Assembly (NCBI RefSeq): GCF_029946185.1
Contig: NZ_JAQSEA010000143.1
Coordinates: forward strand, 1 to 39,000
Direction of reading: 5' to 3'
Length of the DNA stretch: 39,000 bases
DNA from: Prosthecobacter sp.
Lineage (GTDB): Bacteria > Verrucomicrobiota > Verrucomicrobiia > Verrucomicrobiales > Verrucomicrobiaceae
The translations under genes and the position numbers were made by a program. Shown here piece by piece: positions 27,606-38,777 of this stretch. The notes under the pieces are model-generated. The model was not told the origin of the DNA and did not search any database. It saw only the letters and a list, made by a program, of their open reading frames with translations. Each line of letters opens with the position of its first letter. Positions within the stretch are counted from its first letter, which is position 1.

Positions 27606-28909
27606 GGGGTGCGTGGAGTACGCGGTGAGATGAAATAAATGATCCAACCCAGCAAAATTAACGCCATGCCAGCGAGCGTTTCTTCCGGATGCTTCTTGGC
27701 GACGAACACCATCATCCAAGCGCTGATACCGAGAAACAGCAGCGGCGTCACCGGGTAGCCCCAGCAGCGGTAGGGCCGCGGCAGATCCGGCTGGCGGATG
27801 CGCAGCACGATCAAGCCCACCACCGTGGCAAATGAACCGAGCTGAATGCTGAACTGCACGCAGGTGAGCACCGTTTCAAAACTCGCGGTGAGCAGCAGCG
27901 TCACCACGATGGAAAGCTGCACAAACAAACCGACCACCGGCACTCCACGGTCATCGCTCACCGCCAGTGGCGCGAGGATGCGGAGATCCTGCCCCATCGT
28001 TTTCATCACCCGCGGTCCCACCCAGGTCATGGCGCTGATGCTTGAGACCAGCCCCAGGCAGATCAGTCCTGACATGATCTTGCCGCCAGTTTCGCCGAAG
28101 ATGTGGACGGCCGCGATGTGCCCCACATCCTGTTTGCCGTTCAATTCACTCATGGGGGCCACGTACAGAAAAACCGCGTTAAGCGCGAGATACAGACCGG
28201 CCACCAGCAGCGTGCCCAGAGCGATTGCCAGTGGCACGTTCTTCTGCGGATCGCGGATGTCTCCGACGATGTAAGTGGCTGCGTTCCACCCGGCGTAGGC
28301 ATACATCACGAAAACGAGGCTCACGGCGAACGGCGTGCTGCCCATCAAATCCAGATCACCTGAGACGGGCAGAAAGTTCACGGGCTGGGCTTTGCCAAAC
28401 CAGAATCCGGTGCCGATGAAGACGAGGATCAGCGCTACTTTGAGCCAGGTGGCCGTGTTTTGAAACTTGGCCGCCATGTTGATCCCGCCCACGTGGATCA
28501 AGGTCACGATCCATACCATGACGAGAGACCAGGTCGTCGCCGGTGCGTTGGGAAAGATGCTTGAGAAGTAGGTCCCGAAGGCCATGGCCGCGAGTGCGAT
28601 CGGCGCGGCGAAACCCACGGTCACCGAAAGCCAGCCGGAGAGAAACCCGATGGACGGATGAAAAATCTTCGAGAGAAAGTGATACTCGCCGCCGGAGCGC
28701 GGCAGTGCTGCGGCCAGCTCGCCATAGCACACCGCACCGCAGAAGGCGCACACACCGCCGACGACCCACAGCATCAAAAGGACAAAACCCGAGGGCAGGG
28801 AACCCACCTGAAAACCCAGAGAGGTGAACACCCCGGTACCGATCATGTTGGCCACCACCACCGCCGTGGCCGTGATCAGCGAAATACCCTGCGTGCGTGT
28901 GGTGCTCAT
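27602..28909 (-). CDS. APC-superfamily amino acid permease
   Basis: This 435-aa inner-membrane protein has about 12 helices. The first helix holds the family's substrate-site motif NMIGTGVFTSLG. CYGELAAALPRSGGEYHFLSKIF is the conserved segment after helix 2, and YAYAGWNAATYIVGDIRDPQKNVP is the conserved helix 6 to loop region. Members exchange or import amino acids, often with protons. The substrate cannot be deduced. ATG 28909 (MSTTRTQG) is preferred to GTG 28933. It is followed by the secreted protein gene with a four-base overlap. Confidence 0.9.
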   Translation of the reverse strand: MSTTRTQGISLITATAVVVANMIGTGVFTSLGFQVGSLPSGFVLLMLWVVGGVCAFCGAVCYGELAAALPRSGGEYHFLSKIFHPSIGFLSGWLSVTVGFAAPIALAAMAFGTYFSSIFPNAPATTWSLVMVWIVTLIHVGGINMAAKFQNTATWLKVALILVFIGTGFWFGKAQPVNFLPVSGDLDLMGSTPFAVSLVFVMYAYAGWNAATYIVGDIRDPQKNVPLAIALGTLLVAGLYLALNAVFLYVAPMSELNGKQDVGHIAAVHIFGETGGKIMSGLICLGLVSSISAMTWVGPRVMKTMGQDLRILAPLAVSDDRGVPVVGLFVQLSIVVTLLLTASFETVLTCVQFSIQLGSFATVVGLIVLRIRQPDLPRPYRCWGYPVTPLLFLGISAWMMVFVAKKHPEETLAGMALILLGWIIYFISPRTPRTP

Positions 28910-29059
28910 GGGCGCGATGGCTACGCTCACCACCAGTTGTCGTCAACCTCACCCTTCGAGATGGCTGAGATAGAGTAAGTCTGCAGGCCACTTATAGAGT
29001 TGCCTTTTTGTTGTTTAGGACGTAACTTGTTGATGTGAAGACTTACTCGCGCCATTTAA

Positions 29060-29317
29060 ACTACTTTGCCAACATGGCTGAAAGTAGTGCGATCAAGCCG
29101 CTCTGCCACCGACTGGCAGCAAGCCGGGCTTAAGCGGGCATCCCCATTGGGGAATGTCCGCGCCTCTTTGCAGGTGACAGAGCCTGCATCCTTCATCTCC
29201 CGCCCGCGTCAGCATGACGTGCAGGCTTAATTCTGATCATCGCTCACGGCACGCGCAGCCGGGTGTTTCGCACACTCGCTGGCGGGTGCTGCCTGTCTGC
29301 GCGCTCGTGCGGCAGCA
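29060..29317 (+). ncRNA. Structured intergenic region, candidate leader RNA of the PqqD/ATP-grasp cluster
   Basis: In the 451-base gene-free gap (28910-29360) at least five stems lie in series. ACTACTTT-GCCA (29060-29071) pairs with TGGC and AAAGTAGT (29075-29088). CTGCCA/TGGCAG is at 29103-29119. GCGGGCATCCCC (29134-29145) pairs across to 29161. AGCCTGCA (29181-29188) pairs with TGCAGGCT (29220-29227) and encloses CGTCA/TGACG. TGCTGCC/GGCAGCA (29287-29317) is followed by GGCTTTTCCCC, a weak terminator form. No known riboswitch class or tRNA is recognised. The strand is assigned because the gene cluster follows on the plus strand. Confidence 0.4.
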
Positions 29318-29360
29318 GGCTTTTCCCCTCTGCTTTGACACACTCAAATATTCTTTTTTT

Positions 29361-29615
29361 ATGAAACTCATGGATCGACTTTTTTACCAGGATGACAAAC
29401 CCGTGCGCGTTGGCAGCGCCCTCCATCTTGAGCGGCCCAACTGGCTGGTTACCTGCGTTTTCGAACGCCACGAAATCTTCGGCAAAGTTTCCACCAAGGC
29501 CAGTTATGAAGTAGCTGCCCGGACCGAGGATGAGGCTCGAGAATCCGTATGCTCCTTCCTGCAGCAGGCGCTGCAAAACGGCAGAATCGAGTCCGTGCAG
29601 GCTCTGCGGCGGTGA
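29361..29615 (+). CDS. Small protein of unknown function, first gene of the PqqD/ATP-grasp cluster
   Basis: This 84-aa soluble protein has a beta-rich first half (VRVGSALHLERPNWLVTCVFERHEIFGKVSTKASYEVAA) and a C-terminal amphipathic helix (TEDEARESVCSFLQQALQNGRIESVQAL). No family is recognised. It is not a typical RiPP precursor: it has no Gly-Gly leader end and no repetitive core, and it looks folded. It contains two cysteines. ATG 29361 follows a T tract; a second ATG at 29370 is possible. It is the first co-directional gene downstream of the structured leader. Confidence 0.62.
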   Translation: MKLMDRLFYQDDKPVRVGSALHLERPNWLVTCVFERHEIFGKVSTKASYEVAARTEDEARESVCSFLQQALQNGRIESVQALRR

Positions 29616-29654
29616 CGATTTCACGCACCGCTTTTTAACACTTCATCCGTCACT

Positions 29655-29708
29655 GGAAGTGTTCCTGCCATCAAAGGCAGGAGCACTTCCACCTGCCTTC
29701 GTGGCAGG
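29655..29708 (+). promoter_or_regulatory. Tandem hairpins with interchangeable stems before the GreA-like gene
   Basis: Hairpin 1: GGAAGTG (29655-29661) with CACTTCC (29684-29690), and inside it CCTGCC (29664-29669) with GGCAGG (29676-29681). Hairpin 2: CCTGCC (29692-29697) with GGCAGG (29703-29708), loop TTCGT. Because the CCTGCC and GGCAGG segments occur twice, alternative pairing (29676-29681 with 29692-29697) is possible, as in attenuators. There is no T tract directly after it. Confidence 0.5.
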
Positions 29709-29741
29709 CATTTCATCTCACACTTTTCTTCATCTACCTTC

Positions 29742-30008
29742 ATGAATACTCTTCCTGTCCGTCACTATGATCGCGTCACTCTACGTCCTCTCAATGAGCT
29801 GGCATCCCTGCACGAATTTGACATCACCATTCAAGTCGTGCCTGGATACGAGGCTGACGCCGACAGTGGCCGCATCTCGGAGGATGCACCACTAGGCCGC
29901 GCAGTCCTGCGCCGGAGCGCCGGTGAAAAAATCAATCTGCAAGTTCACGACCGCAAACTCGCCATGCTCATTCTGGCCGTGGAAAAACCAACGGACAGCA
30001 CCGGCTGA
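29742..30008 (+). CDS. GreA/GreB C-terminal-domain-like small protein
   Basis: This 88-aa protein matches the FKBP-like C-terminal domain of transcript cleavage factors: ITIQVVPGYEADADSGRISEDAPLGRAVLRRSAGEKINLQV parallels the GreA pattern E-A-D-x(4)-G-x-I-S-x-x-S-P-L-x-x-A-L. The N-terminal coiled coil with its catalytic acidic tip is absent, so it cannot cleave transcripts in the usual way. It could bind RNA polymerase or have taken on another binding role. Proteins of the Rnk type are also stand-alone C-terminal domains. It lies downstream of two hairpins and upstream of the 134-aa protein gene. Confidence 0.72.
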   Translation: MNTLPVRHYDRVTLRPLNELASLHEFDITIQVVPGYEADADSGRISEDAPLGRAVLRRSAGEKINLQVHDRKLAMLILAVEKPTDSTG

Positions 30009-30073
30009 ATAGACGGGAAAAATTCTTCCAATGAGGGACTTGCAGGGTGCGAAAAAAGGACTTCATTTTCACC

Positions 30074-30478
30074 ATGAAAACGACATCCTCACCATTATTC
30101 AGGGGGGTGATGCTGATCGCCGCCCTGCTGGTCCCCGCCACCACGTGGTGGGTAAGTTCGCGCCACTACCGTGCGAGCAGGCAGACGGAGACCACCCTTG
30201 TAGCTGAGAAGAAAGCGCAGCAGCTCCCGGCCGGATTGAAACAGAAGAGCGAGACACCCCCACAGCGTTTGAATTCGGGCTCCGTCGAATTTGCGCCGAT
30301 GCAGATCATGCGCACCTCATGGAACGGCCAGACCGATCCGGACAGCGTGTGGCATGACCAGCGCCGCCAGGCAAACATCATGCTGATGAAGCATGGCCTG
30401 CCGACGCTGGATGTGCCTTCTGCCATGCCGGACAGTCCCCCTCCGCCCAGCTCCCTGCGGATCACCGGCCAAAGATAA
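30074..30478 (+). CDS. Membrane-anchored small protein of unknown function
   Basis: This 134-aa protein has one N-terminal helix (about residues 8-26, FRGVMLIAALLVPATTWWVSS) that may be a signal anchor. A polar, disordered-looking region follows (RASRQTETTLVAEKKAQQLPAGLKQKSETPPQRL), then a short folded part (EFAPMQIMRTSWNGQTDPDSVWHDQRRQANIMLMKHGLPTLDVP) and a proline-rich end. No family is recognised. ATG 30074 is preferred to GTG 30047. An AAAAAAGGAC stretch lies about 15 bases before. A terminator-like hairpin follows the stop. Confidence 0.62.
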   Translation: MKTTSSPLFRGVMLIAALLVPATTWWVSSRHYRASRQTETTLVAEKKAQQLPAGLKQKSETPPQRLNSGSVEFAPMQIMRTSWNGQTDPDSVWHDQRRQANIMLMKHGLPTLDVPSAMPDSPPPPSSLRITGQR

Positions 30479-30496
30479 ACGTAAATTCATCTTGGC

Positions 30497-30526
30497 CCCG
30501 GCGGTGTGTTAACCGGCCGGGTTTCT
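30497..30526 (+). terminator. Terminator-like hairpin after the 134-aa protein gene
   Basis: CCCGGC-GGT (30497-30505) pairs with ACC and GCCGGG (30512-30521) around GTGTTA, with one bulged G, followed by TTTCT. The T run is short, so partial readthrough into the PqqD-like gene is likely. Confidence 0.5.
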
Positions 30527-30527
30527 A

Positions 30528-30552
30528 TGTGGTGTGATTCAATCACACCACA
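30528..30552. promoter_or_regulatory. 25-bp perfect palindrome abutting the PqqD-like start codon
   Basis: TGTGGTGTGATT (30528-30539) and AATCACACCACA (30541-30552) are perfect 12-bp inverted repeats about a single C. The ATG begins at 30556. The site covers where a ribosome binding site should be, and no Shine-Dalgarno sequence is visible. It could be a protein operator or an mRNA hairpin that controls translation. Confidence 0.6.
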
Positions 30553-30555
30553 CTC

Positions 30556-30882
30556 ATGAAACTCGCATCCCTTTCCACCCGGATACATCCCAGTGGGCAG
30601 CCGCATGATCCGGCCCTATGCGCCGGATCGGGGTCCTTTGATTTCCACACCGTCACCTGGCAGGCCGACGGTTTTGGTTTTGATGCCACCAGCGGTGAGT
30701 TTTTTACCGCCAGCCCGGCGGCGCTCATCGTCATGCAGGCGCTGAGCGAGGACATGGCGCGCCAGCAGATCCTCGACCGTCTCACCGTGCGCTTCGAAGT
30801 CGCCCGCAGCACGGCGGAGCGCGATCTGGAATCCTTTCTCGCCGAACTCCTCCACATCGGACTGACGCAGGAGTCCATCTGA
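30556..30882 (+). CDS. PqqD-like protein (RiPP recognition element family)
   Basis: This 108-aa protein matches PqqD-type winged-helix proteins: a beta hairpin (FHTVTWQADGFGFDATSGEFFTASP), then ALIVMQALSEDMARQQILDRLTVRFEVARSTAERDLESFLAELLHIGLTQ, which fits the pattern of 'G...e-I...L...f-x-v....a..D...fl..L...g-L'. In PQQ and many RiPP pathways such domains bind the leader of a precursor peptide and present it to a modifying enzyme. Here the next gene is an ATP-grasp ligase and no radical SAM gene is nearby. The start at 30556 directly follows a 25-bp palindrome. Confidence 0.75.
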   Translation: MKLASLSTRIHPSGQPHDPALCAGSGSFDFHTVTWQADGFGFDATSGEFFTASPAALIVMQALSEDMARQQILDRLTVRFEVARSTAERDLESFLAELLHIGLTQESI

Positions 30883-30884
30883 GA

Positions 30885-30912
30885 ACTTGAAACTTGAAAC
30901 CTGAAACTTGCA
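30885..30912 (+). repeat. Four heptamer tandem repeats before the ATP-grasp gene
   Basis: ACTTGAA, ACTTGAA, ACCTGAA and ACTTGCA fill nearly all of the short gap between the PqqD-like stop and the ATP-grasp ATG at 30916. Copy number could vary by slippage and change the spacing of the two genes. Confidence 0.6.
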
Positions 30913-30915
30913 GCA

Positions 30916-32019
30916 ATGAATGCTTCCCCTGTCATCGCCGTCACCGGGCTTCATCGCGGTGAGAATCCCCAGCCGGGTTCCGCCGTCATTCGCAGCCTGC
31001 GCCGTGTCTATCCAGAGCTGCGCATCATCGGTCTCGTTTATGATTCACTCGAGAGCGGTCTCTTCAGCGAAGATGACGCACCTGATGCCGCCTTCACCAT
31101 GTCCTACCCTGGCGCGGGTGAAGAAGCCTTCTGGGAGCGCCTCGATGCGATCCGTGAGATCGAACGCTTCGATGTTTTGATCCCCTGTCTCGACGCTGAA
31201 ATGGAGCCGCTGGTGGATGCCCCGGAAAAACTGCGCGAGCGCGGCATTCACGCCTGCCTGCCGACTACGGCGAGCTTCAAATGCCGCGACAAATCAAACC
31301 TAGCTGAGCTGTGCGACCGCACGCACTGCCGCACACCGCAGACCCTTGCCGTGAGCGACGTGAATTCGCTCCATCAGGCAGCGCTGACCCTCGGTGGCAA
31401 TGTCTTCATCAAGGGCCGTTATTATGAGGCCCAGCACGCCATCACGCCTGCCGCCCGAGAGGCCGCCTACTGGCACATGCTGGAGCAATGGGGCGCCCCC
31501 GTGCTGGTGCAGGAAAATGTGCCGGGAGAGGAATACAACGTCATCGGTCTTGGCGATGGTCGCGGCCGCATGCTCGGCTCCTGCTCCATCCGCAAGATGT
31601 TGCGCACCGCCAGCGGTAAAGGCTTCGGCGGCATGGTGGTTCGTGATCCGCAGCTGGATGCCATCGCTCAATCACTCATCGCGGAACTGCGCTGGAACGG
31701 CCCGTTTGAACTCGAGTTCGTCAAATCCGAAGGACCCAAAGCGGACTACTGCCTCATCGAGATCAATCCGCGCTTCCCCGCTTGGTGTGATTTCCCCTCC
31801 ACGCTGAACTGCAATCTGCCCGCTGCTGCACTCGAACTCGCCCTGGGCTGGCAGCCCCGTGAACCTCTGCGCCACGCCAGCCCCGGCAAGTTTTTCATCC
31901 GGCATGCCATCGACATGACCGGCGACATTCGCGATCTCGCCGCTCTCACCACCAGCGGTCAGTTCTTCCGTCAGCCACGCGAAATCATTCCGCATCAGGC
32001 CGTGTCGCACGGTCTCTAA
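30916..32019 (+). CDS. ATP-grasp ligase (carbamoyl-phosphate-synthase-like)
   Basis: This 367-aa protein has an N-terminal Rossmann-like pre-ATP domain (IAVTGLHRG... VLIPCLDAEMEPLVDAPEKL) and an ATP-grasp domain with GNVFIKGRYYEAQ (phosphate-binding Lys), VLVQENVPGEEYNVIGL (adenine-binding and Glu region) and LIEINPRFPAW (E282, N284 and R286, Mg and phosphate binding). Such enzymes join a carboxylate to an amine via an acyl phosphate. The closest style is PylC/CPSase-like small-molecule or peptide ligases. It lies between the PqqD-like and decarboxylase genes, which implies a pathway joining amino-acid-derived units, perhaps on a PqqD-bound peptide. The C-terminal 70 residues lack a recognised domain. 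Confidence 0.85.
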   Translation: MNASPVIAVTGLHRGENPQPGSAVIRSLRRVYPELRIIGLVYDSLESGLFSEDDAPDAAFTMSYPGAGEEAFWERLDAIREIERFDVLIPCLDAEMEPLVDAPEKLRERGIHACLPTTASFKCRDKSNLAELCDRTHCRTPQTLAVSDVNSLHQAALTLGGNVFIKGRYYEAQHAITPAAREAAYWHMLEQWGAPVLVQENVPGEEYNVIGLGDGRGRMLGSCSIRKMLRTASGKGFGGMVVRDPQLDAIAQSLIAELRWNGPFELEFVKSEGPKADYCLIEINPRFPAWCDFPSTLNCNLPAAALELALGWQPREPLRHASPGKFFIRHAIDMTGDIRDLAALTTSGQFFRQPREIIPHQAVSHGL

Positions 32020-32044
32020 ATTAAACCTTCCGCTGCATCCTCCC

Positions 32045-33478
32045 ATGCAAACACTTCAGCCGTATTCCCCACCGACGATCACCCGCCATCTCAGCGGCCA
32101 GAACAGCGCCGCCAACCGCAACCGCCATGCACACGGCCTCAACAGCAACGTGTGTGAACGCATCGACGGCGTGCCCGTGGAGGATCTTGCCGCACGCTTC
32201 GGCTCGCCGCTTTTTGTTTTCTCCGAGCGCACCCTGCGTGAGAAAATCCAGCGCGCACGCGAAGCTTTCGAGAGCCGCTACCCAAACACACGCTTCGCCT
32301 GGAGCTACAAAACAAACTACCTCAACGCCATCTGCCGCGTCTTTCACAGCGAAGGCTCCATCGCGGAAGTGGTGAGTGAGTTCGAGTATGAAAAAGCCCG
32401 CCGCAATGGTGTGGCCGGTCGCGACATCATCTTCAATGGCCCGCACAAATCTCGTGCAGGTCTCGAACTTGCGGTCAGCGAAGGCGCGATGATTCAGGTC
32501 GATAACTGGGATGAACTCCTGCTGCTCGACACCATCGCGAAGGAGCAAAATCGCAGCATCGACATCGCCATCCGCTGCTGGCTTGACGCAGGCATTCAGC
32601 CCGTGTGGAGCAAGTTTGGCTTTGGTGTCGAACACGGAGAAGCTTGGCGTGCCATCCGGCGCATTGCTGAAAGCAAGGGCCGCCTTCGTTTGCAGGGCCT
32701 GCACACGCACATCGGCACCTACATCCTCGAACCGAAGGCCTACAAGGTAGCGGCGGAGAAACTCATCACCCTCATGGAGCGCTGCCGTGAGAGCTACGGC
32801 TGGACATTGAGCTATCTGAATCTCGGCGGTGGCTTCCCTTCGCTCAGCTCCCTGCATTACTCCTATCAGCCTCCCGAGCAGTTTGTCCCGCCGATCGAAA
32901 AATACGCCGAAGCCATCGCCAGTGCCTTGAACACACTGCCACGCGACCGCCGTCCACGGCTCTACCTGGAAAGCGGGCGCGCTCTCGTCGATGAAGCGGG
33001 TTATCTCATCACCAGCATCGTCGCCGTAAAGCAAACCGGTGCCTCAGGCCCCATCACCCTCGCCGGCAAGGCATCAAAGGCGCCCGCCTACATGCCTGAA
33101 TCCAATGGAGCCGCCTACGTCATCGACGCCGGCATCAACATTCTCTACAGCGGCAACTGGTATCGCTTCAATGTGAAGCCCGCCAAAGCGCAGCGTGAGA
33201 GCGCCCAGCAGCCCATCAAACTCTACGGCTGCCTGTGCATGAACATCGACGTCATTCGCGAGCAGGTCTCCCTGCCCGCGATGACCACGGGCGATCAACT
33301 CGTCATGCATCCCGTTGGGGCCTACAACATCACGCAGAGCATGCAGTTCATCACCTATCGTCCGGCAGTGGTCATGATCGGTTTGGATGGCCGCGTCGAT
33401 ATCATCCGCGAACGCGAAGACCTCGACTACGTGCAGCGTCTGGAACGCGTCCCAGAACATCTGCTCCCTCCCTCTTGA
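32045..33478 (+). CDS. PLP-dependent decarboxylase, diaminopimelate/ornithine decarboxylase type III fold
   Basis: This 477-aa protein is an alanine-racemase-fold enzyme. PLP-binding Lys89 lies in AWSYKTNYLNAI. LQGLHTHIGTYI carries the PLP-stacking His, and LNLGGGFP binds the PLP phosphate. LYLESGRALVDEAG corresponds to the EPGR motif, with Ser in place of Pro. KLYGCLCMNIDVI stands where DAP decarboxylase has C-E-S-x-D: Cys398 and Asp402 are kept, but the Glu and Ser are Met and Asn. VMHPVGAYNITQSMQFI provides the conserved G-A-Y. An extra ~40-residue N-terminal extension precedes the usual start (ICERIDG-like region). The substitutions suggest a substrate other than meso-diaminopimelate. It follows the ATP-grasp gene by 25 bases. 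Confidence 0.85.
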   Translation: MQTLQPYSPPTITRHLSGQNSAANRNRHAHGLNSNVCERIDGVPVEDLAARFGSPLFVFSERTLREKIQRAREAFESRYPNTRFAWSYKTNYLNAICRVFHSEGSIAEVVSEFEYEKARRNGVAGRDIIFNGPHKSRAGLELAVSEGAMIQVDNWDELLLLDTIAKEQNRSIDIAIRCWLDAGIQPVWSKFGFGVEHGEAWRAIRRIAESKGRLRLQGLHTHIGTYILEPKAYKVAAEKLITLMERCRESYGWTLSYLNLGGGFPSLSSLHYSYQPPEQFVPPIEKYAEAIASALNTLPRDRRPRLYLESGRALVDEAGYLITSIVAVKQTGASGPITLAGKASKAPAYMPESNGAAYVIDAGINILYSGNWYRFNVKPAKAQRESAQQPIKLYGCLCMNIDVIREQVSLPAMTTGDQLVMHPVGAYNITQSMQFITYRPAVVMIGLDGRVDIIREREDLDYVQRLERVPEHLLPPS

Positions 33479-33509
33479 ACCTCCTACATCGCGCCAGCGT
33501 CCCCGGAGT

Positions 33510-33530
33510 GCGGCGCTTCAGCGCCGCTTT
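33510..33530 (+). terminator. GC-rich hairpin after the decarboxylase gene
   Basis: GCGGCGC (33510-33516), loop TTCA and GCGCCGC (33521-33527) form a perfect 7-bp stem followed by TTT. It lies in the 149-base gap before the transporter-peptidase gene. It may be a weak terminator or an interspersed REP-like palindrome. Confidence 0.45.
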
Positions 33531-33627
33531 CGCCAGCCCCCACGCTCTCTCCCACCCCACCCATCTCTTCAGCCAAAGCCAGCTACCTCCTCTCATTCCT
33601 CATTCCCTCTAGAGATCCACCCAGCCC

Positions 33628-35907
33628 ATGAACCCAGAAGCCCCATCCACCCTCCCTGCGATGGTCATTCTCCAAGATGCCGCCCTCTGCCCTCCCTCCC
33701 CAAAGGGGCACGCAGTCGCCACCGCCGCAGCCTTCGCCAAAACACTCCGCCCCTATTTCGAAACCCTCACCACGCTCCTGCTCGAAGTCGCGCGTGCCGC
33801 CAGCTCCATCTTCCTCTGCGGCAGTTGGAAAACCGGCGCGCTGCTATGCTCGGCACTGCTGTTCATGCCACGTTACTTTGTCTTCGCCGTCAGCGCTTGC
33901 TTGCTCGGTGGTTGCATCGCAAGACTCCTGCATCTGCCTGCGGCAATGCGGAAGGACGGCACGCTGCTCTACAACGTTTTCCTCAGCGCCCTCGCCGTCG
34001 CATGGATCACACGCGGTTCCGCGCTCGCGGCTCCTGCCATCTGGGGCATTCTGGCCGTCGTCACAGTTTACACGCTGCTGCTTTCTGCTGCCTTGTGGCA
34101 TTGGTTCCCGCTGCGCGCCGGCCTGCCGCCGCTGAGTGTGGCGTTTGTCGTCGTCTTCGGCACTCTGCTGACCTTTTTCCCACATTGGGCTGCGGGTACG
34201 TTATTGCTGGACATGGGATTGCCGAACGAGCCTGCCCTGCCGTTCGTCATCACCGCCTTCCTGCGCAGCATGGGCACGATCTTGTTCCTGCCGAACGTGT
34301 GGGCCGGCCTCGCCGTGACGCTGGCGATTCTTGTATGGTCACGCGTCGCCATGATCAATGCCATCGCTGGTTATGCAGGCGGCATCCTGATTGTGAAGCT
34401 GCTTGAAGCCTGCGGCTTGCAGTGGCTCGGCTGGTTTGCCGGACACAACTACCTGCTGGCCGGCATGGCGCTCGGTGCGGTCTATTTCGTGCCTTCCTGG
34501 AGCAGCCTTGCGCTCGCCTTTGTGGCGGGTGCCGTCGCTGCATTGCACGTTGCAGCAGTGCAGCATTTCCTGCGTGGCTCCGGCTGGGAGTACCTGCCGC
34601 TGCCCTACTTGCTCACAATCTGGAGCATGCTCTGCTGCCTCCGTCTGCGTGAGAAGCCGGGCTCGCTGCTGCCTGTCACAGACGTCTTTCACAATCCCGA
34701 AGCAGCAGCCGCCGCACTGGCTCTCGCAAACGCCCGCTTTCCGCATCGTCATGAAACCCATGTGCTGCTGCCCACCGCACGCGAAGTCACCGTCACCCAG
34801 GGCTTTGACGACAAGCTCAGCCATCGCGGCGAGTGGAAACACGCGCTCGACTTTGAAGTGCATGACGCCGCTGACAACGCCTGCCCTCCCGGCTGCGATG
34901 ACGATCTAAGCCGCTACTACACGCAGGGTCTCGAAGTCCGTGCTCCGGGCACAGGCGAAATCATCCGCGTCATCGATGGCGTGGCCGACAACGCCCCCGG
35001 CGGCTGCAACTTCGCCAGCAACTGGGGCAACCACCTCATCCTGCGCCTCGATTACGGCGGCATCGTGAAGCTCGCGCATTTCATGAAAAACGGCATCGTG
35101 GTCAAAAACGGCCAGCGAGTCGGAGCAGGCGATCTTCTGGGCTACTGCGGCAATTCCGGTCGCAGCCCGGTGCCGCACATTCATCTGCACAACCAAGCCA
35201 CCCCTGAGACGGGAGCGCCCACCACGCCCTTTTGCCTCACGAACTTTTTCACGCGCACCGCCGAAGGCATGCGCTGGAACTTTGCCGCCGTGCCCCAAGT
35301 GGGAGCCCGCATCGCCCCGGCGACAGTCTCCCTCACCGTGCTGGGCACCCTGGCTCATCTGGCCCCTGGAGCAGCCACGTATCGTGTTTGCACAGCCAGA
35401 TCGACTTCGTTTGAAACGATCACCACCACGCTTGATGAATCCGGTCGCTACATTTTCCGCAGCGGCAAAGAATCCCTCACGGCGCTGCTCGGTCTGCACG
35501 CCTTGCAGATCACGCAGGGCAGCCTCAGCGGTCATTCGCAGCTCCTGCGGCTCCTTTCGTTCGCCATGCCCACCGTGCCCTTTGCTTACCAGAGCGGCAT
35601 GATCTGGGAGGACAGCGTCGCTTTGCCGTCAAAGCAGCACGGTCGGGCATGGGCGGACGTTTTGGCACCCTATGCGGGCCATCCCACCCAGCGCGTCATC
35701 ACGCGTCATTCATTGCATCCCACGACGCAGCGCCTGCACCTCACCACTGCCGTCCTCAATGCGACGGGTGATCTCCCGCACGAGATCGAATTCATCCTCG
35801 AACCAATTCACGGACTCTCTCACCTCACCGCGCATTTCAAAAATCACGTCAGCACCTTCACGCAAACCAGTTTCACCCCCACACTGCCCAACGGCGATGC
35901 CGAATAA
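33628..35907 (+). CDS. Urea-transporter-like membrane domain fused to an M23 metallopeptidase
   Basis: In this 759-aa protein, residues about 45-350 form roughly ten helices in two related halves with urea-transporter-like marks: RKDGTLLYNVFLSALAVAW, RAGLPPLSVAFVVVFGT and AGHNYLLAGMALGAVYFVP...YLPLPYLLTIWSML. Residues about 385-545 are a LytM/M23 zinc peptidase: His399 and Asp408 (HRGEWKHALDFEV), G-L-E-V-x-A-P-G-T-G-x-I, and HIHLH at 517-521, so the zinc ligands are intact. A beta-rich tail of about 210 residues follows. The peptidase probably faces the periplasm. Such proteins may move or process a small amide or peptide, or act on peptidoglycan. It lies in the same run as the ligase and decarboxylase genes. 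Confidence 0.8.
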   Translation: MNPEAPSTLPAMVILQDAALCPPSPKGHAVATAAAFAKTLRPYFETLTTLLLEVARAASSIFLCGSWKTGALLCSALLFMPRYFVFAVSACLLGGCIARLLHLPAAMRKDGTLLYNVFLSALAVAWITRGSALAAPAIWGILAVVTVYTLLLSAALWHWFPLRAGLPPLSVAFVVVFGTLLTFFPHWAAGTLLLDMGLPNEPALPFVITAFLRSMGTILFLPNVWAGLAVTLAILVWSRVAMINAIAGYAGGILIVKLLEACGLQWLGWFAGHNYLLAGMALGAVYFVPSWSSLALAFVAGAVAALHVAAVQHFLRGSGWEYLPLPYLLTIWSMLCCLRLREKPGSLLPVTDVFHNPEAAAAALALANARFPHRHETHVLLPTAREVTVTQGFDDKLSHRGEWKHALDFEVHDAADNACPPGCDDDLSRYYTQGLEVRAPGTGEIIRVIDGVADNAPGGCNFASNWGNHLILRLDYGGIVKLAHFMKNGIVVKNGQRVGAGDLLGYCGNSGRSPVPHIHLHNQATPETGAPTTPFCLTNFFTRTAEGMRWNFAAVPQVGARIAPATVSLTVLGTLAHLAPGAATYRVCTARSTSFETITTTLDESGRYIFRSGKESLTALLGLHALQITQGSLSGHSQLLRLLSFAMPTVPFAYQSGMIWEDSVALPSKQHGRAWADVLAPYAGHPTQRVITRHSLHPTTQRLHLTTAVLNATGDLPHEIEFILEPIHGLSHLTAHFKNHVSTFTQTSFTPTLPNGDAE

Positions 35908-35925
35908 ATCACGCTCCACTCAACC

Positions 35926-36555
35926 ATGAAAACACACCTCCTCATCCTCGCCTTCGCCTGCGTCACCGCTGCGAACGCCACCGACAAACTCCCCGCCATC
36001 TCCGAAGCATGGCAGCAATCACTCACCGCTGAATCCAACAGCGACTACGCCGCTGCGCTCGAAAGTGTCCTCGCCTATAAAAGCGCCGGTGGTGCGACCT
36101 ACCTCGCGGCGGTGCGTGCCGGCTGGCTCTCCTATCTCAACAAAGACTACCCCAAGGCCATCCAGTTTTACACCACCGCCGCCAAGCAGGAACCACGCGC
36201 CATCACTCCCCATCTCGGCATGATGAACGTGTACCTTGCTCAGACCCAGCCTGAGGACGCCCTGCGTGCCGCACGTGAAGTCCTGAAAATCGATCAGTTC
36301 CATCGTCCGACGCTGCTCATTGCCGGTGAGATACTCTTCAATCATCAGGACTATCGCAAGGCCGAGGTCTACTTTGAGCGCGCTTACAAGCTGATGCCTG
36401 AAGACCCCATCGGCATGAGCTGGTTTGGCTGGGCGCAGATCAATCAAGGGCAGGCCCGCTTTGCCGCGCCCTTGTTTGAAAAGCTCATGGAGACCAATCC
36501 GCAGGGCTACATGGTTCAAGACGGATTTGCCATCACACGTTCTGGCCCACTGTAG
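35926..36555 (+). CDS. Secreted tetratricopeptide-repeat protein
   Basis: This 209-aa protein has a signal peptide (MKTHLLILAFACVTAANA) and TPR-type helical pairs: YAAALESVLAYKSAGGATYLAAVRAGWLSYLNKDYPKAIQFYTTAAKQEPRA, then PHLGMMNVYLAQTQPEDALRAAREVLKID and LLIAGEILFNHQDYRKAEVYFERAYKLMPEDP. It probably serves as a periplasmic adaptor. The start lies 18 bases after the transporter-peptidase stop, so the two are likely co-expressed. It ends one base from the convergent amidohydrolase gene. It is the last gene of the cluster. Confidence 0.82.
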   Translation: MKTHLLILAFACVTAANATDKLPAISEAWQQSLTAESNSDYAAALESVLAYKSAGGATYLAAVRAGWLSYLNKDYPKAIQFYTTAAKQEPRAITPHLGMMNVYLAQTQPEDALRAAREVLKIDQFHRPTLLIAGEILFNHQDYRKAEVYFERAYKLMPEDPIGMSWFGWAQINQGQARFAAPLFEKLMETNPQGYMVQDGFAITRSGPL

Positions 36556-36556
36556 C

Positions 36557-37423
36557 TCACTTCAGCTTCCGGCCAAAGTGAACCTCAAAGTAGACGCCGA
36601 GTGAATCTGCCAGCGCCTTGGCAAAGCGACGCTGATTTTCCGGCACGTCACGCACATTGTTCCAAGGGCACTCCACTTGAATGGCGCTCACCGTGCCACC
36701 ATCGCGTGAGCCATGCGCAGCGACGTCATACACACCGCTGAAGTAACCCGCCATGAAGTTAGGATTCGCTTTTGAAGGACCCGGCAGGCAGCGGAAGCCA
36801 CGCAGCTCCAGCAAGCCGCCCAAGCTCTGCGGCCCGCGCACCAGCTCGGCAAAGCTTTGCGGCGAGCGCTTGTGCAGATCACGAATGCTGGTGGCGGCGA
36901 TCAGCGCCGCATCCTCGTTCAGTTCCGCGTCAGAGTGCTTCAGCATGTCGCCTTTGATCAGGTAGCCCAGTTCGACTCGTTGATCGAGATGGCGGTGGCC
37001 ATGAATGTCCAGCAGCAGGCCCATGCCGTTCTTGTGCATCACCGTATCACAGGCCCTCTGCGTGCTGTCATGAAAGCGGTGCCAGGCTGCCGTGGCAGTG
37101 GGATCTCCCTGAGCCGCTTCATCGAGTTCACGGTTAGGATCCAGCTTCGTGCGGTGCAGGCGGGAAATGATCGCGTGCGGTTTGCCACCATAGCGTGCCT
37201 CCAGTTCTTCGATGATCATCTCAGCCAGCGGCACCGTGTTGGAATCAATGCCGGTCACACCATAGCGCCGCGCCAGCACGTTCTCCGGTTTCAAGGTGCC
37301 GCCGTGCGGCACGGTGAGAATGATGGGCAGCGTGCCGGAACGTACCTCGATGTACTTTTCGAGTTCTGCTGTCTGGGCCTGCAATGCTGCGGCGAAAACA
37401 AATAGAAAAAACAGAGTGCGCAT
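36557..37423 (-). CDS. Exported N-formylglutamate-amidohydrolase-like protein
   Basis: This 288-aa protein has a signal peptide (MRTLFFLFVFAAALQAQ). The zinc-hydrolase fold of the N-formylglutamate amidohydrolase family is suggested by LPIILTVPHGGTLKPENV, IISRLHRTKLDPNRELDEA (D-x-N-R) and LLLDIHGHRH (metal-binding D-x-H-G). Most characterised members are cytoplasmic histidine-degradation enzymes, so export points to a different amide or peptide substrate. ATG 37423 is chosen because the signal peptide follows. It is divergent from the beta-propeller gene across 55 bases. Confidence 0.8.
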   Translation of the reverse strand: MRTLFFLFVFAAALQAQTAELEKYIEVRSGTLPIILTVPHGGTLKPENVLARRYGVTGIDSNTVPLAEMIIEELEARYGGKPHAIISRLHRTKLDPNRELDEAAQGDPTATAAWHRFHDSTQRACDTVMHKNGMGLLLDIHGHRHLDQRVELGYLIKGDMLKHSDAELNEDAALIAATSIRDLHKRSPQSFAELVRGPQSLGGLLELRGFRCLPGPSKANPNFMAGYFSGVYDVAAHGSRDGGTVSAIQVECPWNNVRDVPENQRRFAKALADSLGVYFEVHFGRKLK

Positions 37424-37478
37424 GATCGCAGCCAGTGAAAGACAGTTCCCCGCCGTCTGCCACGTTTTTTTCCCGCCC

Positions 37479-38777
37479 ATGATTCACCGCATCCTACTCC
37501 CCCTCCTGGTTCTCGCCTCCGCCTCCCATGCCGGCAACTGGCCCGAATGGCGCGGCCCTTCCGCACAAGGTCACGCCAGCGCCTCCGGCCTGCCAGAAAC
37601 GTGGAGCGAGACCAGCAACATCGCCTGGAAGACAGAGCTTCCCGGTCGTGGCCACTCCACCCCTGTAATGTCGGGCGATCAAATCTGGCTCACCACCGCC
37701 ATCGAAAAAGCAGCCACTCCCGAGGAAGCCAAACGCCGCCTCGAATCCAACACCGGCGACCAGCCGCTCACCGTTCTCGGCTCCGTCAGCCTGCACGCCC
37801 TGTGTGTGGATCGCAGCAGCGGCAAAATCCTCCACGACATTGAGCTGCTCCATGTGAAGGACCCCCAGTGGGCGCATCAGCTCAACAGCTACGCCTCACC
37901 CTCGCCCGTGCTCGCAGAGGGCCGCCTCTACGCACACTTCGGTTCCTTCGGCACCGTCGCCCTTGATACGAAAACCCTGAAGGTGCTCTGGAAAAACGAA
38001 GAGCTGCACGTCATGCACGAAAACGGCCCCGGCTCCACCGCCGTGCTTCACGGAGACAGATTGATCGCGCATTTCGACGGCAGCGATCAGCAGTTCATCG
38101 CCGCCTTTGACACCCACACCGGCAAGGTCGCATGGAAAACACCGCGCAGTGGCGAGATGGACCCTCGCCCGCAGCAGCGCAAAGCCTATGGCACTCCGCT
38201 GATCGTGACCATCAACGGCCAGCCACAGGTCGTCAGCTCCGCCGCCAACAACGTCTATGGCTACGATCCCATCACCGGTCACGAACTTTGGAAGATCCAC
38301 TACGGTGACCTCGGCTTCTCCATGTCCACCGTGCCCGTTGCCGACGACCAGCAGATCTATTTCAGCACCGCCTTCGGCAAATCAGCGGTCGTCGCCCTCA
38401 AGCACGCCGGTGTGAAGACGCCCGAAGTCGCCTGGCGCAACAACAAGAACGCGCCCAAGATGTGCTCCCCCGTGCTGCATGCTGGCCTGCTTTTCTACGT
38501 CGATGACGGCGGCATCGTAAGCTGCGTGGACACGAAAAGCGGCGAGGCTTTTTACCGCGAACGCCTCGGCGGCAAATTCAGCGCCTCGCCGATCATCGCA
38601 GAGGGCAAACTCTACTTCTGCAGCCGCGAGGGCGTCGTCACGATCATCAACGCCACCAAGGAATTCAAAATCCTCGCCCAAAACACCCTCGACGGCTCCA
38701 TCATGGCCAGCCCCATCGCCGATGGCAGCGCCCTCTTCATCCGCACCGACAAGGCGCTGTATAAGATTGGGAAGTGA
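37479..38777 (+). CDS. Secreted PQQ-type beta-propeller protein (BamB-like)
   Basis: This 432-aa protein has a signal peptide (MIHRILLPLLVLASASHA), then repeated beta-propeller blades with the PQQ-like 'A-x-D-x-x-T-G-x-x-x-W' pattern: FIAAFDTHTGKVAWKTPRSG, VYGYDPITGHELWKIHYG, VSCVDTKSGEAFYRERLGG. It starts EWRGPSAQGHASASGLPETWSETSNIAWKTELPGRGHSTP, typical of the many such proteins in Planctomycetes and Verrucomicrobia. No quinoprotein catalytic residues are seen. It is more likely a binding or assembly protein than a dehydrogenase. Confidence 0.85.
   Translation: MIHRILLPLLVLASASHAGNWPEWRGPSAQGHASASGLPETWSETSNIAWKTELPGRGHSTPVMSGDQIWLTTAIEKAATPEEAKRRLESNTGDQPLTVLGSVSLHALCVDRSSGKILHDIELLHVKDPQWAHQLNSYASPSPVLAEGRLYAHFGSFGTVALDTKTLKVLWKNEELHVMHENGPGSTAVLHGDRLIAHFDGSDQQFIAAFDTHTGKVAWKTPRSGEMDPRPQQRKAYGTPLIVTINGQPQVVSSAANNVYGYDPITGHELWKIHYGDLGFSMSTVPVADDQQIYFSTAFGKSAVVALKHAGVKTPEVAWRNNKNAPKMCSPVLHAGLLFYVDDGGIVSCVDTKSGEAFYRERLGGKFSASPIIAEGKLYFCSREGVVTIINATKEFKILAQNTLDGSIMASPIADGSALFIRTDKALYKIGK

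Follow-up and report, generated by a model that had tools for sequence, protein, structure and literature searches.

A conserved bacterial gene cassette joins a PqqD-like protein, an ATP-grasp ligase, a decarboxylase with a leader-like tail and a urea-channel-fold peptidase

Eight open reading frames (ORFs), all on the + strand, fill positions 29361-36555 of a 39,000-nucleotide stretch of a Prosthecobacter sp. contig (NZ_JAQSEA010000143.1, positions 1 to 39,000; hereafter the window). They raise the question of what a PqqD-like protein, an ATP-grasp ligase, a decarboxylase, a protein combining urea-transporter (UT) and M23 peptidase domains, and a TPR protein, which we call D, E, F, G and H, respectively, might do together. 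All eight ORFs are present in the ORF list, and Pfam and NCBIfam searches bear out the families that an initial annotation had assigned to this co-directional set. Our analysis shows that D, E, F and G recur in one order. Taken as a whole, the model that we put forward, in which D docks F to E and a conjugate is formed, decarboxylated and passed through a channel, has in our estimate a little better than an even chance of being right.

When the window's G alone was used to query 288 genomes of the phylum, five other homologues spanning both the UT and M23 parts were found; in a further nine genomes the match was confined to the M23 part. In all five other genomes with a full-length G, E and F immediately precede it in the same order. 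With profiles of E and G built from these six genomes, five of which the G-alone query had already found, the genomes with an E match below 1e-150 and those with a G match below 1e-260 are identical, 6 of the 288; among the remainder, G206 holds two weaker E-like genes without G, and G205 holds the M23 part only. Profile searches of three same-genus genomes found neither E nor G, and a draw of 387 genomes gave no additional E-bearing genome. The co-occurrence check that the initial annotation had proposed thus places the gene adjacency in more than this one genome.

A scan of an F alignment against 84,980 species genomes returned at least 568 confirmed relatives, and the locus counts that follow refer to the best 80 matches to the window's F among these, plus five seeds (85 loci). 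Most of these loci come from metagenome-assembled genomes (MAGs), and their labels, given here as in the records although some look wrong, include Verrucomicrobia, Armatimonadetes, Thermodesulfatator, Aquificota, Campylobacterales, Ignavibacteria, Bacteroidetes, Chlorobiota, Deltaproteobacteria, Gammaproteobacteria, Magnetococcales, Myxococcota, Gemmatimonadetes, Calditrichota, Cloacimonadota, WOR-3, Muiribacteriota, Cyanobacteria and others. Non-MAG records include Chthoniobacter flavus Ellin428, Thermodesulfatator autotrophicus S606, Pedobacter paludis R-8, Alkalilacustris brevis and Nostocales cyanobacterium HT-58-2. Among loci with enough flanking sequence, E is directly upstream of F in 81/82, D is upstream of E in 77/78 (72 by a strict distance and five, L016, L028, L035, L053 and L092, through the gene map; L043 lacks it), and G is beside F in 76/82, being displaced upstream in L036 and further downstream in L084. 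A TPR homologue is nearby in 53/65 loci. Across 68 loci, E, F and G diverge in step: their pairwise distances are correlated (rho 0.83; maximum of 0.202 over 300 permutations per pair), which would fit inheritance as a unit. The recurrence of D-E-F-G exceeds chance, and the conserved system with a ligase, a decarboxylase, a peptide-binding domain and a membrane protein that had been postulated from the window is borne out. Spread by plasmids was considered and rejected, as 72,556 plasmid records held no F match at 1e-60. A four-gene unit kept in one order under so many phylum labels implies that its product should serve very different bacteria.

What brings these proteins together may be D. 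This discrete PqqD-like protein (30556..30882, +) matches PF05402 with 32.6 bits against a cut-off of 23.4; its best NCBIfam match, to lasso_PqqD_Strm (3e-9), reaches 37 of 70 bits and stays under the cut-off. These matches identify it as a probable recognition element (RRE) for ribosomally synthesized and post-translationally modified peptides (RiPPs). Discrete lasso and LPP RREs bind the motif [Y/W]xxPx[L/V/I/F/A] (excerpts of PMC13381572), and a YxxP leader motif, varying to LxxP, is bound by discrete RREs (excerpts of PMC12710340). LppB, an LPP RRE, contacts its leader through an Asp, hydrogen-bonded to the Tyr, and a Phe four positions further on, which packs against the Pro (excerpts of PMC13381572). 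D carries Asp-x3-Phe near its C-terminus (RDLESF in the window), with the spacing of those LppB residues.

A motif of the same type is found on F, the alanine-racemase-fold decarboxylase dependent on pyridoxal 5'-phosphate (32045..33478, +; Orn_Arg_deC_N, 114 bits, over the Pfam cut-off), which begins with a leader-like tail. In the window it lies within the tail at residues 7-18 of F as YSPPTITRHLSG (32063..32098, +), and the consensus over the 84 of 86 tails that could be parsed is Y-E-K-P-V-I-x-K-L-x-S-G-x-M-N-K-F-G. The pattern [YFW]xxPx[ILVMF] occurs in 84/85 F tails, whereas 200 shufflings gave 3.7 on average and 10 at most; the one non-match (L019) has Leu at the first motif position. 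In the first 40 residues of control proteins it was present in 2/84 E-family and 0/68 TPR-family ORFs.

The first residue of this tail co-varies with D. Our sample comprised 80 D sequences (from 79/85 loci plus the window), 78 of them with a parsed tail; the two without one (L046 and L077) have the Asp. The tail/D pairs were Tyr-Asp (70), Trp-Asp (1), Tyr-Asn (1), Tyr-Gly (1), Phe-Ala (2), Phe-Tyr (1), Phe-Gly (1) and Leu-Ser (1). Thus, the Asp is present in 71/73 pairs with a tail Tyr or Trp and in 0/5 with Phe or Leu (Fisher p 1e-6, with no phylogenetic correction), being absent in 5/5 cases in which the first tail residue is unable to hydrogen-bond. Because of this co-variation, D is probably an RRE that binds the F tail. 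Its partner would then be not a free precursor peptide but the N-terminal tail of F, and D, as a lasso-type RRE, would serve as an adaptor keeping F beside E. The peptide-binding function that the initial annotation had given to D agrees with our data, while the likeliest partner, F's own tail, had been missed.

An ordinary RiPP-like arrangement, in which D and E serve a precursor whose gene lies elsewhere and the F tail is no more than a competitor or regulator, would accord with the fact that RREs normally serve precursor peptides, and short ORFs are easily missed. We nevertheless judge it improbable: when the ORFs of 20-129 aa at 89 loci were searched for the motif, the matches were scattered over both strands and no peptide recurred by eye, a plausible one being present only in the divergent gene set at L108, and the F tail is itself conserved, unlike the variable core of a precursor peptide, besides co-varying with D. 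The docking of F through its tail would share with lasso and LPP leader recognition a small PqqD-like protein, a Y/WxxPx[hydrophobic] motif, and an Asp and Phe in D spaced like the LppB pair in contact with the leader Tyr and Pro (excerpts of PMC13381572). It differs in that the motif sits on a decarboxylase, ahead of a folded enzyme rather than a variable core, and Pfam and NCBIfam searches of the window genes revealed no lasso protease or cyclase. The PQQ and mycofactocin pathways also combine a PqqD-like protein with a conserved short sequence; the main cassette, however, has neither a radical SAM enzyme nor a precursor peptide. It departs likewise from the HPr-rel-A/GAK set, since D scores 26.5 bits on PqqD_rel_X against a cut-off of 35 and the window genes include no HprK-type partner. 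With the same databases, none of the eight window proteins matched radical SAM, cyclodehydratase or HprK families, the locus being neither PQQ nor a known RiPP class nor GAK, in line with the initial annotation.

The chemistry that D might organize is indicated by the residues of E and F. E (30916..32019, +) is a carbamoyl-phosphate-synthase-like ATP-grasp ligase that matches PRK12767-type NCBIfam models (best 4e-17) under their cut-offs and Pfam models just under theirs; its Lys126, Lys166, Glu265, Glu282, Asn284 and Arg286 are invariant in 50/50 aligned sequences, two of which come from the L108 locus described below. In F, Lys89, His222, Glu309, Arg312, Cys398, Asp402 and Tyr427 are invariant in 86/86 sequences and, judged by these seven residues, the enzyme looks active. 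It is not the housekeeping LysA, a candidate that we rejected: F scores 224 bits on TIGR01048 (cut-off 297.9), and the window's genome has its own LysA, which scores 480 bits. The Glu (of CExxD) and Arg of LysA are residues that we take to read the distal centre of diaminopimelate (DAP). At the positions of these residues in the same genome's LysA, F has Met in 86/86 and Thr or Ser in 86/86 sequences, respectively.

The nearest solved sequences to F are FigC/FslC (296 bits), DAPDC (214) and BtrK (150-152). This ranking would suit a rhizoferrin-like citrate-conjugate siderophore, for which E would stand in for the NRPS-independent siderophore (NIS) synthetase. F, however, reaches 204 bits on NF041039 (FslC), for which the cut-off is 500, and FigC's citrate contacts, H357 and R387 (excerpts of PMC7857480), correspond to Ile401 and Gln431 in 86/86 F sequences, so we regard such a siderophore as very improbable. 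The enzymes FigC, SbnH, AcsE, MccE and BtrK, whose substrates are conjugates, are grouped with DAPDC and D-ODC (excerpts of PMC7857480). F shares with the FigC/FslC-SbnH-AcsE-MccE-BtrK group the fold, a FigC-like Cys-Met loop and the absence of an acidic residue reading a free distal amine; it differs from FigC/FslC in lacking the citrate contacts, in scoring far under the FslC cut-off and in bearing the leader-like tail.

Since F has neither the DAP- nor the citrate-recognition residues, its active site suggests a conjugated amino acid as substrate, one with free alpha-amino and alpha-carboxyl groups that is attached through its side chain, though not to citrate. E likely makes this conjugate and would do so by coupling the amino acid via its side chain to an acceptor; F would then strip the free alpha-carboxylate, like FigC, SbnH and BtrK acting on other conjugates. 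Ligation probably precedes decarboxylation, as the F active site resembles those of enzymes working on already conjugated amino acids. Both activities named by the initial annotation are represented, and it is the order, decarboxylation before ligation, that appears to be reversed.

At the level of enzyme families, the BtrJ/BtrK pair of the butirosin pathway resembles E and F in joining an ATP-grasp enzyme to an alanine-racemase-fold decarboxylase. Carbamoyl-phosphate synthase and BtrJ-like ATP-grasps have been placed in one clade (excerpts of PMC4431377). The cassette may differ from the butirosin pair in having no recurring carrier-protein gene: no acyl carrier protein was seen among the 25 commonest neighbour families, in a survey that covered genes of 50 aa or more and made no carrier-profile search.

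The tail of F could itself be a covalent carrier. E, guided by D, would load an amino acid on the tail, F would decarboxylate it in cis, and the M23 domain of G, on the cytosolic side, would clip the loaded product off straight into the channel. Consistent with this, the motif is followed by a further conserved NKFG-like stretch, BtrK acts on a carrier-bound amino acid (excerpts of PMC7857480), the M23 domain is predicted to be cytosolic, and in L108 the motif lies on a separate 70-aa ORF beside an F-like enzyme without the tail. No residue downstream of the motif is invariant, however (Lys16 is found in 65/84 and Asn15 in 64/84 tails, and in the window those two positions are Ser and Ala), which is why docking is favoured over a covalent carrier; L108, moreover, is a single example and its 70-aa ORF is unproven. 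We consider the carrier rather unlikely. Were it correct, the cassette would be a metabolite assembly line in which a ribosomal leader replaces the acyl carrier protein.

L108 (5456-10582, on G206:C231) is of interest in its own right. Its genes encode a D, an ATP-grasp, the 70-aa ORF with YEKP, a second ATP-grasp, the tail-less F-like enzyme and a RaSEA-like radical SAM protein (197 bits, cut-off 212), and may make up a pathway of their own in which the carrier peptide is free. Provided that the 70-aa ORF is genuine, this one example would keep the leader apart from the enzyme, whereas the main cassette has the two as a fusion.

Turning to the membrane component, G (33628..35907, +) combines a UT-fold membrane domain with an M23 zinc peptidase and ends in a beta-rich domain; UT (125 bits) and Peptidase_M23 (34 bits) are both over their Pfam cut-offs. 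The UT domain (residues 54-336, 33787..34635, +; PF03253, 5e-36) has the full urea-channel fold (182 bits) and matches dvUT with TMt 0.82. Gln24 and Glu187 of dvUT are, on the numbering and roles that we assume, the urea-coordinating pair. None of 60 G sequences has Glu or Gln at the Glu187 position, and 27/60 have Gln or Glu at that of Gln24, making the urea selectivity of G doubtful. Thus, G shares with dvUT the full UT fold and differs in its changed pore residues and in its fusion to M23. The zinc and catalytic residues of M23 (His399, Asp408, His484, His517 and His519 in the window; 34822..35184, +) are invariant in 60/60 sequences, as in LytM-type M23 peptidases, and the domain had been correctly recognized as intact. 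The window's genome has no second UT gene besides G. In the close relative L024, H is followed by an AMP-binding-like gene (PaaK-like by eye) and another UT protein, whose two halves are separated by TPR repeats (L024:12386-15234).

On which side of the membrane the peptidase lies bears on its role. We assigned ten membrane segments from family hydropathy, and the net charges of the six segments placed inside (+0.75 to +1.97) and the five placed outside (-0.90 to +0.27), together with the absence of an extra membrane segment ahead of M23 (0/60 sequences), predict that both ends of G and its M23 domain should be cytosolic. The termini of animal UT proteins are intracellular. The location of UT termini is not stated in the excerpts of PMC10541013, and PMC4659628 makes no mention of urea. 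A cytosolic, channel-tethered M23 domain would differ from LytM-type peptidases, and this topology weakens a role in the cell wall, so that the trimming of cell-wall peptides once envisaged for it is unlikely. We suggest that the UT fold, with its altered pore residues, would pass a small polar product over the inner membrane, and that the zinc-peptidase domain would cleave an amide or peptide bond next to the channel.

In two loci the gene content may point to import of a ligand that is peptide-like or metal-bound: the next + gene after G encodes an SBP_bac_5 solute-binding protein in L030:11538-13376 (labelled Rhodoferax) and, by eye, a solute-binding-like protein in L035:11969-13555 (labelled Alkalilacustris). 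Such genes would fit a cassette working inwards, in which a porin and the UT domain import an amide- or peptide-like solute, the M23 domain, predicted to be cytosolic, hydrolyses it, and E and F process the pieces; channels are also bidirectional. Yet an ATP-consuming ligase and a conjugate-type decarboxylase are better suited to synthesis, and beyond the UT domain no permease was seen beside G, where no search was aimed at permeases. We give this scheme little credence and prefer the synthesis of a product that G would let through the membrane, possibly outwards as the initial annotation had proposed.

In the docking model, a porin resembling OmpG and a TPR protein of the periplasm would, in many bacteria, complete a path across the outer membrane. 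An iterated profile detects an outer-membrane-like barrel in the fetched flanks of 38/85 loci; a model of the L054 barrel has 14 strands (pLDDT 92.5) and best matches the E. coli porin 2x9k (6e-11), followed by OmpG 2iwv (2e-9). The TPR protein of the window, H (35926..36555, +; TPR over the Pfam cut-off), has a signal-like start. Barrel and TPR form one ORF in L057, L075, L085 and L096, and by a crude measure a hydrophobic start is present in 53/58 H homologues and 29/33 barrels. In two loci of one Verrucomicrobia family (L017:1981-5096 and L020:11942-15018), a sigma-factor-like gene and a serine/threonine kinase, both named by eye, precede the cassette, and this kinase carries TPR-like repeats and may stand in for H.

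Several observations weigh against the model. The tail motif also occurs in 30/80 G proteins, in the first membrane hairpin, so the pattern by itself is not specific. Two pairs, L018 (Tyr/Asn) and L052 (Tyr/Gly), break the co-variation rule, and the five pairs with Phe or Leu come from just two lineages (L017, L019 and L020; L059 and L101), and thus count as two co-changes. The positions of D and LppB were matched by the Asp-x3-Phe spacing rather than by alignment or structure. L043 has an F with its tail but no D, E or G nearby, and L055, L068 and L079 have no G beside F. One short outside loop of G is slightly positive, and the charge of the central loop changes from -0.90 to -0.23 when five residues are added. 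Finally, a search of the window's own genome, run without a positive control, found no barrel.

In the comparisons made with lasso RiPPs, LysA, FslC and HPr-rel-A/GAK, a defining feature was missing every time, and we therefore regard the cassette as a new kind of system, built from single parts (RRE, alanine-racemase-fold decarboxylase, UT and M23) of known kinds. We found no description of it or its product in open-licence PubMed Central papers, a scope that makes the missing description weak evidence. The excerpts of PMC8939145 contain no occurrence of decarboxylase or M23, those of the RRE papers PMC12710340, PMC7470986 and PMC13381572 do not contain the term decarboxylase, and those of PMC7470986 and PMC13381572 do not contain ATP-grasp. 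If D binds the F tail, RiPP leader recognition would have been reused to wire two metabolic enzymes together, and RREs without precursor peptides would cease to be dead ends for genome mining. The decarboxylase residues, in turn, narrow the search for the substrate.

The first three genes of the window's set (A-C, 29361-30478, +) lie outside the conserved unit, which is smaller than the eight-gene set of the initial annotation: matches to A-C were seen in 4/85 loci (L024, L026, L027 and L039), all near kin of the window. A has no family match over the Pfam or NCBIfam cut-offs; B (88 aa, 29742-30008, +) is a GreA/GreB C-terminal domain alone, without the coiled coil; and C (143 aa) has, by eye, a hydrophobic stretch near its N-terminus. 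L027 is a MAG labelled Akkermansia muciniphila, a label that is probably wrong, and its cassette F is 90% identical to that of the window. As a test of anti-phage defence, PADLOC-DB gave 0 matches for 8/8 window proteins. Rfam gave nothing over the gathering score in 28900-37000, and scans for promoters (1 promoter-like site, 2.0 expected) and terminators (10 terminator-like sites, 6.1 expected) were uninformative. Immediately beyond H, and facing the cassette, the window encodes an N-formylglutamate-amidohydrolase-like protein (36557-37480, -) that scores just under the Pfam cut-off.

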